DNA of 64,000 nucleotides. It comes from Rubrivivax sp. (lineage in GTDB: Bacteria; Pseudomonadota; Gammaproteobacteria; Burkholderiales; Burkholderiaceae_C). Position 1 is the stretch's first letter; every line of letters begins with the position of its first letter. The translations under genes were made by a program, and so were the position numbers. The notes under the pieces are model-generated. The model saw only the letters and a list, made by a program, of their open reading frames with translations, was not told where the DNA came from and searched no databases. Positions 2,973 through 44,747 of this stretch are shown here, one piece after another. The DNA is taken from positions 62,001 to 126,000 of the forward strand of contig JAEUPB010000075.1 of NCBI GenBank assembly GCA_016789955.1, written 5' to 3'.

Positions 2973-3764
2973 ATGCCCAATCCCAGGGGCCCTTCCGGCC
3001 AGCCTCCCGTCGCCGACACCGCGCGTGCCGAGCCGACGCCCCCCACCATCGCCGAGGCCGTCGACAAGGCCTACGCGCGCTACGACGCCAACGCCGACGG
3101 CGCGCTGACGCTGGCCGAGCTGCTCGCGGTGATCGATGCCGACGGCACGCACACCGAAGTCGCCGAGCGTGCCGCGGCCACGGTGACGGCCGCAGACACC
3201 AGCGGCGACCAGTCCCTGAGCAAGGCCGAGGTCACCGCGCTGATCACCAAGCTCGACACCGACGGCGACGGCCTGCTCGAACGCAGTGACCGCTCGGCCA
3301 CCGGCGCCGACACCACGGCCTTCGAGCTGGCCAGCGTGCTGCTGTTCGCGCGCGGCCTGCACGGTGGCCCGGGGAGTGGCGGCCCGCGCGGCGACGGCAT
3401 CGAGCGCACGGTGATCGACGCGGTGGACAGCCTGTTCACCCGCTACGACGCCGACACCAGCACGACGATCTCGCTGTCGGAGGTGCTGGCGGCGCTCGAC
3501 CCCAACGGCACCCGCACCGACCTCGACGCGAGGGTCACCTCGCTGTTCACCGCGGTGGACAGCAACGGCGACGCGGCGCTGTCGCTGGCCGAGATCACCG
3601 CCGTCGTGGCGCAGTTCGACACCGACGGCGACGGCACGATCGAGCGCGGCGAGCACCCCGCGGCCGATGCCGGCGACGCGGTGCAGCTGATCGGCATCCT
3701 GATGCACGGTGGGCACGGGCCACACGGCGGGCACGGGCCGGACACCGACACCGGCGCGGTATGA
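2973..3764 (+). CDS. EF-hand calcium-binding protein with His/Gly-rich tail
   Basis: 263 residues carrying six EF-hand-type loops: DANADGALTLAE, DTSGDQSLSKAE, DTDGDGLLERSD, DADTSTTISLSE, DSNGDAALSLAE and DTDGDGTIERGE. The fourth loop is degenerate (Asp then Thr/Ser ligands). The arrangement is two sets of three, as if duplicated, split by a Gly-rich linker near residues 135-145. The C terminus is HGGHGPHGGHGPD, a possible metal-binding tail. No signal peptide is obvious. AGGAG before ATG 2973 fixes the start over an in-frame ATG at 2922. The stop codon overlaps the start of a 21-residue micro-ORF. Confidence 0.8.
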   Translation: MPNPRGPSGQPPVADTARAEPTPPTIAEAVDKAYARYDANADGALTLAELLAVIDADGTHTEVAERAAATVTAADTSGDQSLSKAEVTALITKLDTDGDGLLERSDRSATGADTTAFELASVLLFARGLHGGPGSGGPRGDGIERTVIDAVDSLFTRYDADTSTTISLSEVLAALDPNGTRTDLDARVTSLFTAVDSNGDAALSLAEITAVVAQFDTDGDGTIERGEHPAADAGDAVQLIGILMHGGHGPHGGHGPDTDTGAV

Positions 3765-3826
3765 GCGCGCCGGGCCGCTCCCAAGCGCGAATCCCGGAGT
3801 GCGCAGCACGAAGGGTCGTCCAATGA
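3761..3826 (+). CDS. Micro-ORF cassette copy 1 (21 residues, [12 protein letters not shown] family)
   Basis: Encodes [20 protein letters not shown] plus Q. The ATG overlaps the EF-hand gene stop (ATGA) and its own stop overlaps the ATG of copy 2 (ATGA). The repeat unit is 62 bases. AAGGG lies seven bases before the next ATG. Compared with copies 2 and 3, the first 12 codons differ at three third-codon positions only, all synonymous, which argues for translation. I do not recognise the peptide. Confidence 0.55.
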   Translation: MSAPGRSQARIPECAARRVVQ

Positions 3827-3888
3827 GCGCGCCGGGCCGCTCCCAGGCGCGAATCCCGGGCCACGACATGCGCAGGGTCGTCCGATGA
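3823..3888 (+). CDS. Micro-ORF cassette copy 2 (21 residues, [12 protein letters not shown] family)
   Basis: Encodes [20 protein letters not shown] plus R, directly after copy 1 with a 62-base period. It starts and stops by ATGA overlap, the last one with the DUF4397 gene. CAGGG lies a few bases before the downstream ATG, so the cassette supplies that gene's ribosome binding site. The C-terminal half has diverged from copy 1 except for the RRVV end. Confidence 0.55.
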   Translation: MSAPGRSQARIPGHDMRRVVR

Positions 3889-5213
3889 GCGCAGAGGGTG
3901 TGACGGCAATCGATCGCCGCCGCGCCCTCGCCACCCTGGCCACATGGGTGGGCGGGGCGGCGGGGACCGCTGCCTTGCCCGGCTGCGGTGGCGGGGGCAG
4001 CAGCGGTTCATCCGGCAGCACGCGCATGCGGGCACTGAACCTCACGAGCGACCTGCCGTCGATCGACCTGCTCACCGACGACACCAACCGCTACGCCGCG
4101 CTGGCCTCCGCCACGATGTCGGACTACCTGAGCTTCGACGCCGCCACGGTGGCGCTGAAGGTGCGCCGCGCGGGCGACGCCACGCAGCTCTACAGCAGCA
4201 GCTTCGTGCTGGCCAAGGACGAGGTCTACACCGCGGTGGTGTGGGGCCGCGAGACCTCGCTGCGCGTGCACACGCTGCCCGAGGATGCGGTGGACACCGA
4301 CATCACCGACGGCGCCGCGCGGCTGCGCGTGTTCAACGCGACCATCGATGCCGGCTCGCTCGACGTGTACGTCACGTCGGCCACCGCCGACATCGCCGAG
4401 AGCGCGGCGCTGCAGTCGGCGCTGGCCGGCGGCACGCTGGGCAGCTACCGCGACCTGTCGGCCGGCACCTTCCGGCTGCGCGTCACCGGCGCCGGCGACC
4501 CCACCGACCTGCGGCTGGACGTGTCCTCCTTCGTGCTGGCCAACCGCAAGCACGCGACGCTCGTCATCACCGCGGGCGCCAGCGGCGTGCTGGTCGACGG
4601 CGTGCTGATCCCGCTGCAGGGCACGGCCACGGTGATGAAGAACACGCAGGCGCGGGTGCGCGTGGTGGCCGGCGTGGCCGGCGCGGGCAACGTCGCGGTG
4701 ACGGTGGGCGGCCAGGTGGTGGCTGGCGGCTACCGGTCGCCCACGGTGGGCCCGTACACGCGGGTCACGGCCGGCACCGTCGACGTGGTGGTGCGTCTGG
4801 ATGGCGGATCGCCGAGCACCGCGTCGCTGACGCTCGTGCCCGGCACCGACTACACGCTGCTGGTGACGGGCAGCGCCGGCGCGGCGCGGCTGCAGCCGCT
4901 CACCGACGACAACCGCGTGCCGGTCACGGCCAGCCGCGCCAAGGTGCGGCTGGTGCACGGCGTGGCGGGGCTCGACCCGCTGACGCTCTCGGTGGACTAC
5001 CTGCCGGTGGCCACCGACCTCGCCGAAGGCGCCGCGTCGACGCCGGCCACGCTGGCCAGCAGCGCGGCCGCGCGGGTCGACGTGACGGCCGCCTCGGCCG
5101 CGCAGCCGGTGTACAGCGTCGACAGCGTGAACCTGCAGACCGGCTCGGTTTACACGGTGTTCGTGCTGGGCGGCAATACCGCGCCGACGGGGGTGATCCG
5201 CAAGGAGCGGTGA
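3885..5213 (+). CDS. DUF4397-type lipoprotein
   Basis: 442 residues. The N terminus has twin arginines (DRRRALATLATWVGG) and a lipobox (ALPGC), then a Gly/Ser linker, so it is probably a lipoprotein, perhaps Tat-exported. The rest is a series of beta-rich modules of the DUF4397 kind, each with a line such as ARLRVFNATIDAGSLDVYVT or KVRLVHGVAGLDPLTLSVD and a closing VYTVFVLG-type strand. Function of the family is unknown; a surface or adhesive role is often guessed. ATG 3885 overlaps the stop of micro-ORF copy 2, so it is coupled to the EF-hand gene. Confidence 0.75.
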   Translation: MSAEGVTAIDRRRALATLATWVGGAAGTAALPGCGGGGSSGSSGSTRMRALNLTSDLPSIDLLTDDTNRYAALASATMSDYLSFDAATVALKVRRAGDATQLYSSSFVLAKDEVYTAVVWGRETSLRVHTLPEDAVDTDITDGAARLRVFNATIDAGSLDVYVTSATADIAESAALQSALAGGTLGSYRDLSAGTFRLRVTGAGDPTDLRLDVSSFVLANRKHATLVITAGASGVLVDGVLIPLQGTATVMKNTQARVRVVAGVAGAGNVAVTVGGQVVAGGYRSPTVGPYTRVTAGTVDVVVRLDGGSPSTASLTLVPGTDYTLLVTGSAGAARLQPLTDDNRVPVTASRAKVRLVHGVAGLDPLTLSVDYLPVATDLAEGAASTPATLASSAAARVDVTAASAAQPVYSVDSVNLQTGSVYTVFVLGGNTAPTGVIRKER

Positions 5214-8781: not shown

Positions 8782-9693
8782 ATGGCGAGCGTGCTCGTGC
8801 TCGGCGGCACGGTCTTCGTCGGCCGCCACATCGTGCAGGCGCTGGCGGCGGCCGGGCACCGGGTGACGGTCTTCAACCGCGGCGTCACGCCGGCTGGCGA
8901 CCTGCCCGCCGCGGCCCGCCTGCGCGGCGACCGCGACCTCGGCGACGCCGGCCTCGCGGCCCTCGACGGTGATGCAACGTGGGACGCCTGCGTCGACGTC
9001 AGCGGCTACCGGCCCGAGGCCGTGCGGGCCAGTGCCCAGCGGCTCGCCAAGCGCGTCGAGCGATATGTGTACGTGTCGGCCGTGATGACCTACGGCACGC
9101 CGCCGCACGGGCCGGTCGACGAGTCCTTCCCCGTCGTCGACCCCGCGCCCGCAGGCACCGCTGAGATCGACGGCCGCACCTACGGCCCGCTCAAGGTGGC
9201 CTGCGAGCGCGTCGTGCACGCGGTGTACGGTCCTCGCGCGACGGTGCTGCGCCCGCAGGTCATCGTCGGCCCCGGCGACGGCTGGCCGCGCTACGCCGAG
9301 TGGGCGCGGCGCGCGCTGCGCTCGCGGCGGGGCGAACCCTTCGCCGCACCCGGCGACGGCCGCACGATGCTGCAGGTGATCGACGTGCGCGACCTGGCGC
9401 GCTTCGTGGTCACGGTGGTGGAGCGGCACGCGGTCGGCACCTACAACCTGGCCGGCCCGCGCATCGACTGGCAGACCTTCGTCGGCCTGCTGGGCGCGCG
9501 GAACGTGCGCTGGACACCGGTGCCCGGCGACGACATCGACCTCGACACGTGGCCCTTGTACCGCCCGCCCGGGCACCCGCTGGCGGCCCTGATGCACATC
9601 GATGCGAGCCGTGCGCAGGCAGCTGGCCTCGTGCTCACCGATCCGGCGGTGACGGCGCGCGACGTGCTCGCAAGCTTGGAGTCAAGCGCATGA
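8782..9693 (+). CDS. NAD-dependent epimerase/dehydratase family protein
   Basis: 303 residues. The N-terminal Rossmann motif [22 protein letters not shown] and a YGPLKVACE segment (Tyr-x3-Lys) mark an extended short-chain dehydrogenase. [16 protein letters not shown] and the late [12 protein letters not shown] are usual for sugar-nucleotide-type or related reductases in this family. Substrate unknown. The TGA stop lies inside ATGA, the start of micro-ORF copy 3. Confidence 0.82.
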
Positions 9694-9755
9694 GTGCGCC
9701 GGGCCGCTCCCAAGCACGAATCCCGGAACCCGCAGGGTGGAGGGTTGCCTCATGA
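9690..9755 (+). CDS. Micro-ORF cassette copy 3 (21 residues, [12 protein letters not shown] family)
   Basis: Encodes [20 protein letters not shown] plus S. It begins on the epimerase stop (ATGA) and ends on the start of the DUF456 gene (ATGA), again exactly 62 bases from ATG to ATG. GGAGG at its 3' end is the SD of the downstream gene. It lies 5.9 kb from copies 1 and 2 between unrelated genes, so the unit appears to be mobile or recurrently inserted between cistrons. Confidence 0.55.
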
Positions 9756-32999: not shown

Positions 33000-34688
33000 T
33001 CAGACCCCGAAGTCGGTGCCGATCAACGTCACCATCGTGCCGTCCTCGATGCCCGCGTCGAAGACGTTGGCCGGCACGTCGTTGAACACCGCGATGGCGG
33101 TCCAGCCGCTGGCCGCGGTGTTCGCGTAGAGCACGACGTCGCTGCCTGACGCGGCCACGAACAGCTGCTCCTCGAGGTCGATCGGCGCCATGCCGCCGGC
33201 GAAGAAGCCGCGGCTGAAGACCAGCTGGTCGTGGTACGGATTGAATCCGTTGACGGTGTCGAAGCCGGTGTGCCCCGACAGCCAGCGCAGCTGCTGGTCG
33301 CCCACCGTCAGGTTGATCGTGTCGTTGCCGGTGCCCCCGATGATGATGTCGTCGCCGCTGGCCTGGATCGTGTCGTTGCCGGCGGCGCCGTCGAGCGTGT
33401 CGTTGCCGTTGCCGCCGTTCAGCGTGTCGTTGCCGTTCTCGCCGAACAGCTGGTCGTTGCCGTCGCTGCCGTAGAGGAAGTCGTTGCCTTCGCCGCCGCG
33501 CAGCATGTCGTGGCCGTCACCGCCGACCAGCGTGTCGTTGCCGTCCTGGCCATGCAGCGTGTCGTTGCCGCCCTCGCCATCGAAGGTGTCGTTGCCATCG
33601 GCCCCGTAGGCGTGGTCGTTGCCGCCGCCCAGGTCGGCGGTGTTGGCCGCGCTGTTGCCCAGGAACGTGTCGCCACCGTTGCCGAGGCGGAAGACCTCCA
33701 GGTTCTGGAAGGTGTCGGTGCTGGAGGAGCCGACCACGAAGCCGGAGCCGTTGGCGTTGAAGACGACCGTGGTGGCCCACATTCCGCTGAAGTCACCCGT
33801 GTCGGTGCCCGCACCGCCATCGATGATGTCGTCATCGGGGCCGCCGATGATCAGGTCGTTGCCGCCCATGCCGTTGAGGACGTCGGGGCCGGCGCCGCCG
33901 TCGAGCTTCTCGTTGGCGTTGCCGCCGACGATGATGTCGTGGCCGTCCTGGCCGTAGCCCTCGCCGTCCTCGCCGATGAACAGCGTGTCGTCGCCATCGT
34001 TGCCGTACAGCTTGTTGAAGCCGCCTTCGCCGTACAGCCAGTCGTCGTGGTCGCCGCCGTAGAGGTCGTCGTTGCCGGCGCCGCCGAGCATGGTGTCCTG
34101 GCCGGTGCCGCCGAACAGGTCATCGTTGCCGTCGTCGCCGTAGATCTCGTCGTTGCCGCTGTCGCCGCGGATGACGTCGTTGCCGCCGTTGCCGTGGAGC
34201 GTGTCGTTGCCGCCGCGCCCGTCGATGTCGTCATTGCCGTCCATGCCCGCGAGGTGGTTCGCCACGGATGACCCGCGAAGGATGTCGGCCTGGTTGGAGG
34301 CGTAGATGTTCTCGATGCTCACCAGGTAGTCGACGCGCCCCAGGTCGAACATGCCGGGGCTGGTGGAGTAGCCCATGGCATACGCGCGGCCGTACGAGGG
34401 GTCGTAGGCCAGGTCCACGACCATGCCGGCGTTGGACTGCGCGTAGAACACGGTGTCGGTGCCGGAGCCGCCGTCGAAGAGATCGGCACCGCCGTAGTCC
34501 CGGTTGGCGCCCAGTCCGCTCTCTCCGAAGAAGGTGTCGTTGCCTCCGTGGCCGTAGAGGTAGGTGTTGTGGAAGACCTTGTTGGTGTGGGCGGGTATCG
34601 AGACGAGGTTGGCCTGATCGACCAGATCGTCGTCGCCTGTGCCGCCGTGGACGATGGCGGTGTTGGCATTGGGTGCGGGGATGCTCAT
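33000..34688 (-). CDS. RTX (hemolysin-type calcium-binding) repeat protein
   Basis: 562 residues. Two blocks of glycine-rich nonapeptides (GGxGNDxLxG) are separated by a non-repeat segment (TGDFSGMWATTVVFNANGSG) near residue 300. No N-terminal signal peptide. The last 90 residues are repeat-free and end TLIGTDFGV, an Asp followed by hydrophobic residues, as in type I secretion substrates. No type I secretion genes are in the window. Probably secreted; binds calcium; biological role unknown. Confidence 0.9.
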   Translation of the reverse strand: MSIPAPNANTAIVHGGTGDDDLVDQANLVSIPAHTNKVFHNTYLYGHGGNDTFFGESGLGANRDYGGADLFDGGSGTDTVFYAQSNAGMVVDLAYDPSYGRAYAMGYSTSPGMFDLGRVDYLVSIENIYASNQADILRGSSVANHLAGMDGNDDIDGRGGNDTLHGNGGNDVIRGDSGNDEIYGDDGNDDLFGGTGQDTMLGGAGNDDLYGGDHDDWLYGEGGFNKLYGNDGDDTLFIGEDGEGYGQDGHDIIVGGNANEKLDGGAGPDVLNGMGGNDLIIGGPDDDIIDGGAGTDTGDFSGMWATTVVFNANGSGFVVGSSSTDTFQNLEVFRLGNGGDTFLGNSAANTADLGGGNDHAYGADGNDTFDGEGGNDTLHGQDGNDTLVGGDGHDMLRGGEGNDFLYGSDGNDQLFGENGNDTLNGGNGNDTLDGAAGNDTIQASGDDIIIGGTGNDTINLTVGDQQLRWLSGHTGFDTVNGFNPYHDQLVFSRGFFAGGMAPIDLEEQLFVAASGSDVVLYANTAASGWTAIAVFNDVPANVFDAGIEDGTMVTLIGTDFGV

Positions 34689-35714: not shown

Positions 35715-37328
35715 TCAGTACAGGCGGATCGCGGTGTCGAAGTGCCAGGTGCGGCGGATCTCGATCACGTCGTAGTCGGCGGAGAGCGCCGGTGAGAACG
35801 GCGGATAGGGTGCCAGGCCCTCGATCGTGCGGCGGATCGTCTCGTCGACCTCGGGCACGCCACTGCCGGTGACGAAGGTCACCGACTCGACGCTGCCATC
35901 GCGCCGCAGCGCCACCGTGACCAGCGGCCGCGTGTGCGGGCGTGCGGCGATCTCGCGCACCTTCTCCGGCGACAGGTTGAGCTGGATGCGCCGCTCCCAG
36001 GCCTCGGCGTACAGCAGCAGCGCGGCGTTGGTGTCGTAGCGCCCCAGCAGGCGGCCCCGGCGCGCGCTGCTCCACGACGAGGGGCGGTTGTCCTGCTGCC
36101 GCGCGGCATCGCGGCGGGCGGCTTCCTCGTCGAGCTGCCGGCCGATCGCGCGGCGGGCGGCCTCGCGGCGTTCGTCGTCGTCCTTCAGGGCCTGCGCGCG
36201 GGCGGCTGCCTGGCGGGCTGCTTCCTGCCGTGCGGCCTCCTGGCGAGCGGCTTCCTGGCGAGCGGCCTCTTGGCGGGCTGCTTCTTGGCGGGCTGCTTCT
36301 TGGCGGGCTGCCTCTTGGCGGGCTGCCTCCTGGCGAGCGGCCTCCTGGCGAGCGGCCTCTTGGCGAGCGGCCTCTTGGCGAGCGGCCTCTAGGCGAGCGG
36401 CCTCTAGGCGCGCTGCCTCTTGCCGCGCTGCTTCCTGTCGAGCCGCCTCCAACCGAGCGGCCTCCTGACGCGCGGCTTCGAGTCGAGCCGTCTCGTTGCG
36501 AGCGGTCTCTTCCCGAAGCGCTTCGGCGCGGGACGCCTCTGCCCGCGCTGTCTCAGCACGCGCCGTTTCGGCCCGAGCGGCCTCGGCTCGTGCGGCCTCG
36601 GCTCGTGCGGCCTCGGCCCGAGCGGCCTCGGCTCGCGCGGCCTCGGCTCGCGCGGCTTCTGCTCGCGCGGCTTCTGCTCGCGCGGCTTCCACCCGCGCCG
36701 CCTCCGCCTGCGCCAGACGTCGACGCGCCTCCAGCTCCAGGCGGGCGAGGCGGGCGCGGTCGGCGCTGTCGTCCACCGGCCGGGTGTCGATCGGCGCGGG
36801 GGCAGGGGGGCGCACGGGCCGCGGTTCGACCGGCACCGGGTTCGATGCCGGTGGGGCCGCGGCCACCGCCGTGGAGGGCAGCGCGGCGACGGGCGGCACG
36901 GTCCAGGCCGGCGCGTCCAGCCGGTCGAGGGCCATCCGCGGTGCTTCGGCCAGGGCCGCCGAAGGCAGGGCGGGCATCGCCGCATCGGGCGCCGGTGCCT
37001 CGGGCACTGCGGCAGGAGCCGGAGCCGGCTCGGCAGGCGCGGCGTCAGCGGCTTCCTGCGGCGCCGTCTCCGCCGCGGGCTTCGGCGGTGCCGCAGCAGC
37101 GGATCGTGCCGCGGGTGGCTCCGGCGCTGGCGGGGCCGCCACTGCCGCCTCGGCCGCCTCAGGCACCCGCTCGGGCGCCGGCATCAGCACCGCGCGCAGG
37201 TCCGGCACCTCGATGCGCCGTTCCTGCCACGGCAGTGCGAGGCCCGGGAGCCCCGAGCCATCGCCGCCGAACGCGAGGCTCAGCACCAGCGTGTGCACGA
37301 GCATCGAGACGATCACGGCCATCGCCAT
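35715..37328 (-). CDS. TonB/TolA-like energy transducer with long Ala-Arg-Glu helix
   Basis: 537 residues from ATG 37328 (GGAG upstream); a TTG at 37451 would add 41 Pro-rich residues. One membrane helix ([19 protein letters not shown]), a Pro/Ala-rich periplasmic stretch to about residue 180, then about 170 residues of five-residue repeats (EAARA, later EAARQ) forming a single long charged helix as in TolA, and a TonB C-terminal domain ([30 protein letters not shown]...). It spans the periplasm to act on the outer membrane. Convergent with the TauE gene. Confidence 0.85.
36205..36715. repeat. 15-bp tandem repeats coding [10 protein letters not shown]
   Basis: About 30 copies of a 15-base unit (minus-strand sense GAGGCCGCTCGCCAG and variants) inside the TolA-like gene. 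The 3' half is nearly homogeneous (EAARQ) and the 5' half more varied ([15 protein letters not shown]). The period is a multiple of three, so copy-number change alters helix length without frameshift. Confidence 0.85.

Positions 37329-42116: not shown

Positions 42117-44747
<2,631 letters not shown>

Follow-up and report, generated by a model that had tools for sequence, protein, structure and literature searches.

The EF-hand/DUF4397 locus

The window analyzed here, a 64,000-nt stretch of a Rubrivivax sp. genome, carries a tandem pair of 62-bp units (3761-3822 and 3823-3884) between an EF-hand gene and a DUF4397 gene. TRF recovered the pair with a period of 62, 2.1 copies and a score of 185, and the two units are 97% identical over their first 37 nt. 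Their borders are marked by three ATGA tetranucleotides (3761-3764, 3823-3826, and 3885-3888), and the frames at 3761-3826 and 3823-3888, here termed relay frames, each consist of 21 codons (ATG plus 20) followed by a TGA within the next ATGA. An earlier note on this DNA had described the two units, their 21-codon frames and the three consecutive ATGA junctions exactly, and our coordinates, the TRF result and the flanking genes agree with it. The features of the locus, together with a third copy elsewhere in the window, are as follows:

2973..3764, + strand: EF-hand gene, 263 aa; stop codon TGA (3762-3764) inside the left ATGA
3761..3822, + strand: first 62-bp unit (unit 1), with its left NTGA at 3761-3764; covariance model, 89 bits
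3761..3826, + strand: relay ORF 1, 21 codons, stop in the second ATGA; from the sequence and family-wide frame statistics
3762..3791, + strand: hairpin 1 of unit 1, pairing 3762-3768 with 3785-3791 and an inner GGG (3772-3774) with CCC (3780-3782); from covariation
3793..3815, + strand: hairpin 2 of unit 1, pairing GTGC (3799-3802) with GCAC (3806-3809) and CCC (3793-3795) with GGG (3813-3815); covarying columns 41-47 and 40-48
3811..3815, + strand: SD-like AAGGG, part of the element, lying upstream of the 3823 start; from family SD counts
3823..3884, + strand: unit 2 of the 62-bp element; covariance model, 72.9 bits
3823..3888, + strand: relay ORF 2, 21 codons, stop in the third ATGA; from the sequence and the family-wide frame statistics
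3885..5213, + strand: DUF4397 gene, 442 aa, start in the third ATGA; Pfam DUF4397 5.9e-38, codon-model frame +0
9690..9755, + strand: third window copy of the element, a single unit; covariance model, 82.7 bits

The EF-hand gene matched Pfam EF-hand_1 (3.9e-16) and was placed in frame +0 by the codon model, with 281 open codons. Hairpin 1 of unit 1 is a GAA variant with imperfect outer pairs and is not the predicted minimum-energy fold of the unit, while the GGG that closes hairpin 2 is part of the SD. The third copy likewise runs from NTGA to NTGA with an open 21-codon frame, and its two co-directional flanking genes are both in frame +0 by the codon model. An empty counterpart of the EF-hand/DUF4397 site was not found among 19 congener loci, in which the DUF4397 gene was present in 15 and an EF-hand match in none of the fetched stretches. 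The window also holds other tandem repeats: 27-nt arrays at 33312-34241, with a period that we take to be that of RTX-type nonapeptide repeats; two 15-nt arrays, possibly coding, at 36198-36509 (20.8 copies) and 36535-36704 (11.3 copies); and a 27-nt unit at 43702-43763 (2.3 copies, 100% matches).

Copy number and distribution of the element

Using a covariance model built from 17 units of the same genome, we found 30 copies of the element in that genome at E<1e-9. BLAST with the window pair returned 14 matches there, of which 12 begin at the first base of the query and two at the second. The flanking genes differ among the 12 sites that were inspected in this genome. A genus-level search gave matches in 27 of 41 genomes, the present one included, with 0 to 77 copies per genome. 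Across the family, the covariance model matched 179 of 299 genomes at E<=0.001, many of them weakly, and across the order 5 of 150 genomes at E<=1e-6, two of which belong to the same family and one of which is the genome studied here. A pattern scan of named genomes yielded at least 118 stretches, with titles including Rubrivivax, Ideonella, Leptothrix, Piscinibacter, Methylibium, and others; since the pattern begins with TGAG, the left NTGA was partly selected in that scan and the right NTGA was not. The earlier note had suggested seeking the 62-bp unit in relatives and placing it relative to stop and start codons, and doing so produced many copies, mostly running from NTGA to NTGA. Tandem arrays made up 43 of 181, which is the figure to use for tandem frequency, 80 further regions having been chosen mostly for their tandem look (these included L403 and L404, which were fetched for the L022 site described below and omitted from its analysis).

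No match to Rfam 15 was obtained for the whole window at gathering thresholds or for 3600-4050 at E up to 5, and plasmid and phage records gave no match to the element at the E limits used. The 62-bp element is an interspersed repeat and not a peptide gene family. One copy (L200) was seen in a metagenome-assembled genome titled Rhodanobacter, by transfer or mis-binning. A second palindromic repeat was noticed at L017, L013, and L004 (C87, C74, and C97 of the present genome, G000); it has GCCGGGCCGCTCCCAAG in common with the element, its stems are different and it has no NTGA ends.

Placement at stop/start overlaps and empty sites

We collected 232 distinct copies of the element with a core HMM that does not include the NTGA ends. 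NTGA was present at both ends in 202 copies, 169 of them at 62 bp and 22 at 63 bp. Coding of the flanks was then read with the codon model in 208 arrays drawn from 239, omitting 14 without a right NTGA, two without a left NTGA, and 15 near a sequence end or containing N. Both coding tests, one for an upstream gene that ends in the left NTGA and one for a downstream gene that starts at the right NTGA, were passed in 150 of the 208; the remaining 58 passed one test only (25 and 25) or neither (8). Control pairs of NTGA spaced 62 nt apart passed both tests in 7 of 99 cases. An SD-like 4-mer stood upstream of the right NTG in 216 of 223 arrays, compared with 114 of 223 for the left NTG and 12% for any NTGA. 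Start codons were mostly ATG on the left (132/163) and mostly GTG on the right (97/163), a bias that is expected if the left NTGA belongs to the target and the right NTGA to the element.

Empty sites were available for three loci, and a 4-nt NTGA stop/start overlap was found in 41 of 42 of them (two by a lenient CTG). At ftsW-murG, for which the loci are those of the best 30 of 60 genomes, the overlap occurred in 13 of 14 insert-free loci. It occurred in 22 of 22 at the L022 site (two with the lenient CTG) and in 6 of 6 at hutC-hutD; at both of these sites the loci were picked as top-scoring hits to a joined-flank query, a choice that favors insert-free sites. A filled site reads GCATGA-[58 nt]-RTGA against GCATGA when empty. 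Since empty sites are NTGA overlaps and filled copies add an RTGA, the element enters directly after NTGA, bringing its own SD and RTGA. NTGA-to-NTGA placement, the empty sites and the element's own SD are direct observations.

Maintenance of the reading frame

Among copies of 62 bp, the frame opened at the left NTGA stops on the right NTGA in 168 of 169. The earlier note's remark that start, stop, frame, and SD are preserved together thus holds for most of the element family, the right SD counts above included. By length, 295 distinct units fell into 237 of 2 mod 3, 52 of 0 mod 3 and 6 of 1 mod 3, counts that are inflated by subfamilies. The 52 units of 0 mod 3 are mainly 60- and 63-bp subfamilies, nearly all of which read in frame into the next gene with no stop at the junction. 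A stop earlier than the right NTGA was seen in 9 of the 295 units, and in four of these it lies at codon 21, giving a TGATG overlap. The earlier note had held that copies with frameshifts, internal stops, or no preference for ATGA junctions would speak against its reading: shifted lengths and earlier stops do occur, in the minority just given, whereas the preference for NTGA is very strong.

Tandem arrays in which an inner NTGA has been lost give the most stringent test: the outer NTGA was still reached in frame in 13 of 16 (p=1.2e-4 against 1/3). Twelve of the 13 do so through a 63- or 60-bp unit before the loss and one through a chain, and three arrays fail; the 16 omit arrays in which an outer NTGA is missing, e.g., L205, in which two inner NTGA are lost at 62-bp spacing. 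Loss of the inner NTGA was observed at 4 of 56 junctions following 2 mod 3 units and at 13 of 46 following 0 mod 3 units (p=0.0066). In single units, in-frame stops were fewer than expected (5 vs. 12.8, p=0.012), but control frame 1 had a deficit too (11 vs. 19.2, p=0.03), and avoidance of in-frame stops in single units is only suggestive. Indel events taken from pairwise alignment were dropped as independent counts because they proved too ambiguous. On these comparisons of sequence, it is the frame, rather than the peptide, that is conserved in the element.

Hairpins and the encoded peptide

In 165 gap-free, distinct 62-bp units, the most strongly covarying columns, near neighbors set apart, were 41-47 and 40-48 (hairpin 2), followed by 7-26 (hairpin 1). 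Two-sided changes were counted in 40 cells vs. 5.6 in shuffles (95 copies from 80 named loci); the alignment behind this count was fitted to the structure, while the mutual information of the 165 units was not. Mean entropy by codon position in the 165 units was 0.288/0.523/0.471, so that position 2 varies most, and the pattern of purifying selection on amino acids, with third positions freest, was not seen. Codons 3-9 are almost as constant at their third positions as elsewhere (entropy no higher than 0.28). The usual residues are R/H/C at codon 14 and A/V at codon 16, and the bases of both codons covary in a manner that preserves the stem. The relay peptides matched no Pfam family.

Since codon position 2 is the most variable and two hairpins covary, the peptide is not what is conserved, and the recurring MSAPGRSQA(L/R)IP is best understood as a side effect of hairpin conservation. 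The earlier note had taken the conserved peptide to be the point of the cassettes, a view that the entropies, the stem-preserving changes at codons 14 and 16 and the Pfam result do not bear out. Folding energies were not unusual, with z of 0.70, 1.23, and 0.32 for the window copies and a lowest value of -1.14 among eight, and the consensus fold is not the predicted minimum-energy fold of the window copies. The hairpins may act at the RNA or the DNA level.

Insertions in the dcw cluster

The ftsW-murG junction is an insertion hot spot, with inserts of several unrelated repeats in 16 of 30 genomes (the present one included). In 15 of these 16 inserts a single frame runs from the ftsW ATGA to the murG start, and in the other there is a two-step chain; unrelated inserts carry unrelated peptides yet behave alike. 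Reading the junctions by an overlap-chain walk in the dcw clusters of 52 genomes, again including our own, we found an intact stop-start chain in 21 of 21 inserts at ftsW-murG and 11 of 11 at murG-murC. Elsewhere in the cluster the chain was intact in 5 of 8 inserts at mraY-murD, 4 of 7 at murD-ftsW, 2 of 4 at ftsL-ftsI, 2 of 4 at ftsI-murE, and 1 of 1 at murE-murF. The ddl-ftsQ junction, at which overlap is not the norm, was counted apart and had an intact chain in 0 of 17. Exceptions comprised three broken chains, five out of frame, and inserts without an overlapping start at mraY-murD (3) and ddl-ftsQ (16). Excluded from these counts were 35 rows of "in-frame fusion", most of which look like variable N-termini; a few, L432, L456, and L414 for example, could be true in-frame insertions.

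Independence cannot be assumed for related inserts: 46 inserts sort into 11 sequence clusters, and there are 15 distinct relay patterns at ftsW-murG. The chain was kept in 28% of random-length shuffles and in 40% of real inserts given a random deletion of 0-2 nt, compared with 68% of same-length shuffles and 38 of 46 reverse-complemented inserts. Since same-length shuffles and reverse complements often keep the chain, the trait that is kept is length modulo 3 and not the absence of stops; an open frame alone says little in DNA so rich in G+C. The statement in the earlier note that this is not a usual intergenic repeat stands, the stop-start chain being real, general, and apparently selected.

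Several inserts have features of their own. At ftsW-murG, several terminate in a duplicate of the final ~24 nt of ftsW, including its SD and ATGA. L266 carries a 541-nt repeat cluster at the same junction, read as one 183-codon frame with a repeated PFGLSLSKP that ends in TGATG on murG. At murG-murC, 28-codon relay frames occur once and twice (L407, L434, and others); they begin much like the murC N-terminus, which would fit a duplication of the murC start along with the insert.

Alternative explanations

Three other readings of the element were weighed. If each unit were a gene for a small, basic 21-residue peptide that has its own function, multiplied in tandem and scattered to other sites, then the retention of an open frame together with its start, stop, and SD across nearly all copies of 62 bp would follow directly. 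Such genes would hardly be expected to vary most at codon position 2, to hold the third positions of codons 3-9 nearly fixed, or to swap the amino acids at codons 14 and 16 while the bases covary; moreover, members of the 60- and 63-bp subfamilies are fused to the gene that follows, inserts of other origin that code for other peptides form the same kind of chain at ftsW-murG, and the peptides have no Pfam match. We regard this explanation as very improbable. Little more can be said for a structured mRNA regulator of operons, controlling processing or translation with the relay frame as an incidental feature. Two covarying hairpins, the SD inside hairpin 2 and a core conserved at the nucleotide level are what such a regulator would have, but the folding energies are ordinary, Rfam gave no match, the flanking genes differ at the 12 sites of the present genome, and frame compensation has no place in the scheme; we think it highly unlikely as well.

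The element could also be an ordinary REP-type palindrome mobilized by a RAYT (Y1) transposase, with the NTGA borders serving as a cleavage motif only and the open frame a consequence of G+C-rich sequence. Covarying hairpins and interspersed, polymorphic copies agree with this, and the 68% of same-length shuffles that stay open make openness weak evidence against it. Placement at stop/start overlaps, the compensated frames of the arrays, and the 15 relay patterns at ftsW-murG are not predicted by it, and matches to the transposase itself were few. PF01797 (Y1_Tnp) was found in only 3 of 17 genomes (G122, G361, and a borderline match in G021), and it was not found in the present genome (79.6% complete) or in G011, which is 99% complete and has 77 copies; a RAYT/Y1 mobilizer was rejected as a candidate. 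This reading is, in our judgment, unlikely.

A proposed relay model for the 62-bp element

We favor, with a probability of roughly 0.8, the interpretation that the 62-bp element is a non-autonomous, hairpin-bearing mobile repeat that acts as a relay mini-cistron and maintains translational coupling in operons. The element would insert immediately 3' of the NTGA in an overlapping stop/start pair, leaving the upstream gene its stop, and the original start codon (with its SD where present) would then open the 21-codon relay frame inside the element. The 3' end would supply a new SD and RTGA, such that the relay frame stops on the new start of the displaced gene. Ribosomes finishing the upstream gene would reinitiate on the relay frame and again on the downstream gene, and insertion would do little to disturb translational coupling or the protection from polarity, with the relay peptide as a by-product. 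Tandem copies could form because the RTGA that the element brings is itself a sequence of the target type. With the SD paired to CCC in hairpin 2, translation of the relay frame may open the SD and thereby gate downstream initiation. Site polymorphism and copy number indicate that the element spreads or is lost. From the sequence evidence we infer that ribosomes read the relay frame, that selection acts on coupling, that the element spreads by transposition-like insertion, and that hairpin 2 gates initiation.

A broader proposal is more tentative, and we would put it somewhat below an even chance. Selection on stop/start coupling may be strong in this group of Burkholderiales, such that intercistronic insertions of any origin (the 62-bp element, other palindromic repeats, the 541-nt cluster) persist only as chains of overlapping relay mini-cistrons. 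The 62-bp element would then be a specialized, self-contained relay with a hairpin-held SD, delivered to NTGA overlaps by a putative mobilizing machinery.

Relation to known systems and significance

The closest parallel in habit is with the MIRUs of mycobacteria, described as apparently mobile repeats that insert at start codons with an ORF coupled at -4 nt spacing (PMC12548453, a 2025 review citing Supply et al., 1997), and as having no dyad symmetries and small ORFs that overlap both neighboring ORFs in the same direction (PMC4473831). Going by those descriptions, the 62-bp element is similar in being dispersed, multi-copy, and sometimes tandem (the 43 of 181 arrays above), with a small co-directional ORF that overlaps both neighboring ORFs at its ends. 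As compared by description only, it differs in its two covarying hairpins, where MIRUs are described as lacking dyad symmetry, and in its phylum; for the element we also document empty sites and frame compensation. Since it has dyad symmetry and comes from a different phylum, the element works like a MIRU yet is not filed as one.

REP/BIME sequences are dispersed short intergenic palindromes, some of them close to stop codons (PMC12306157). The element shares with REP/RAYT systems the form of a dispersed palindromic stem-loop, and differs from them in its open frame and RBS, its position in stop/start overlaps and the absence of Y1_Tnp from 14 of 17 genomes; whereas REP sequences seldom overlap coding sequence, it overlaps coding sequence at both ends, at the stop of the upstream gene and at the start of the downstream one, in the 150 of 208 arrays that passed both coding tests. 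Termination-reinitiation at ATGA and TGATG overlaps is established for gene pairs (Huber et al., 2019; PMC6728339). The overlap geometry of those pairs is alike and their mechanism is the one that we propose for the element, the difference being that a mobile insertion re-forms the overlap at each of its ends. The TAACTGA repeats of Beggiatoaceae (PMC4679880) are dispersed heptamers near start codons with a possible translational role; they place a stop in each of three frames and mostly lack an SD. Both kinds of repeat lie dispersed next to start codons; of the two, only the 62-bp element has a relay frame. We found no report of such an element in Burkholderiales in the open-licence literature.

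To our knowledge, the weight that the very common ATGA gene overlaps carry in vivo is still poorly known. The natural insertions described here amount to a replicated evolutionary test, in which length modulo 3, compensated frames, and mini-cistron chains point to coupling as the trait that is kept. They also add a widespread mobile element with a MIRU-like habit and REP-like hairpins from outside the mycobacteria, and they caution that 21-codon frames of this kind need not be peptide genes. Finally, the element offers a natural, portable coupling module.
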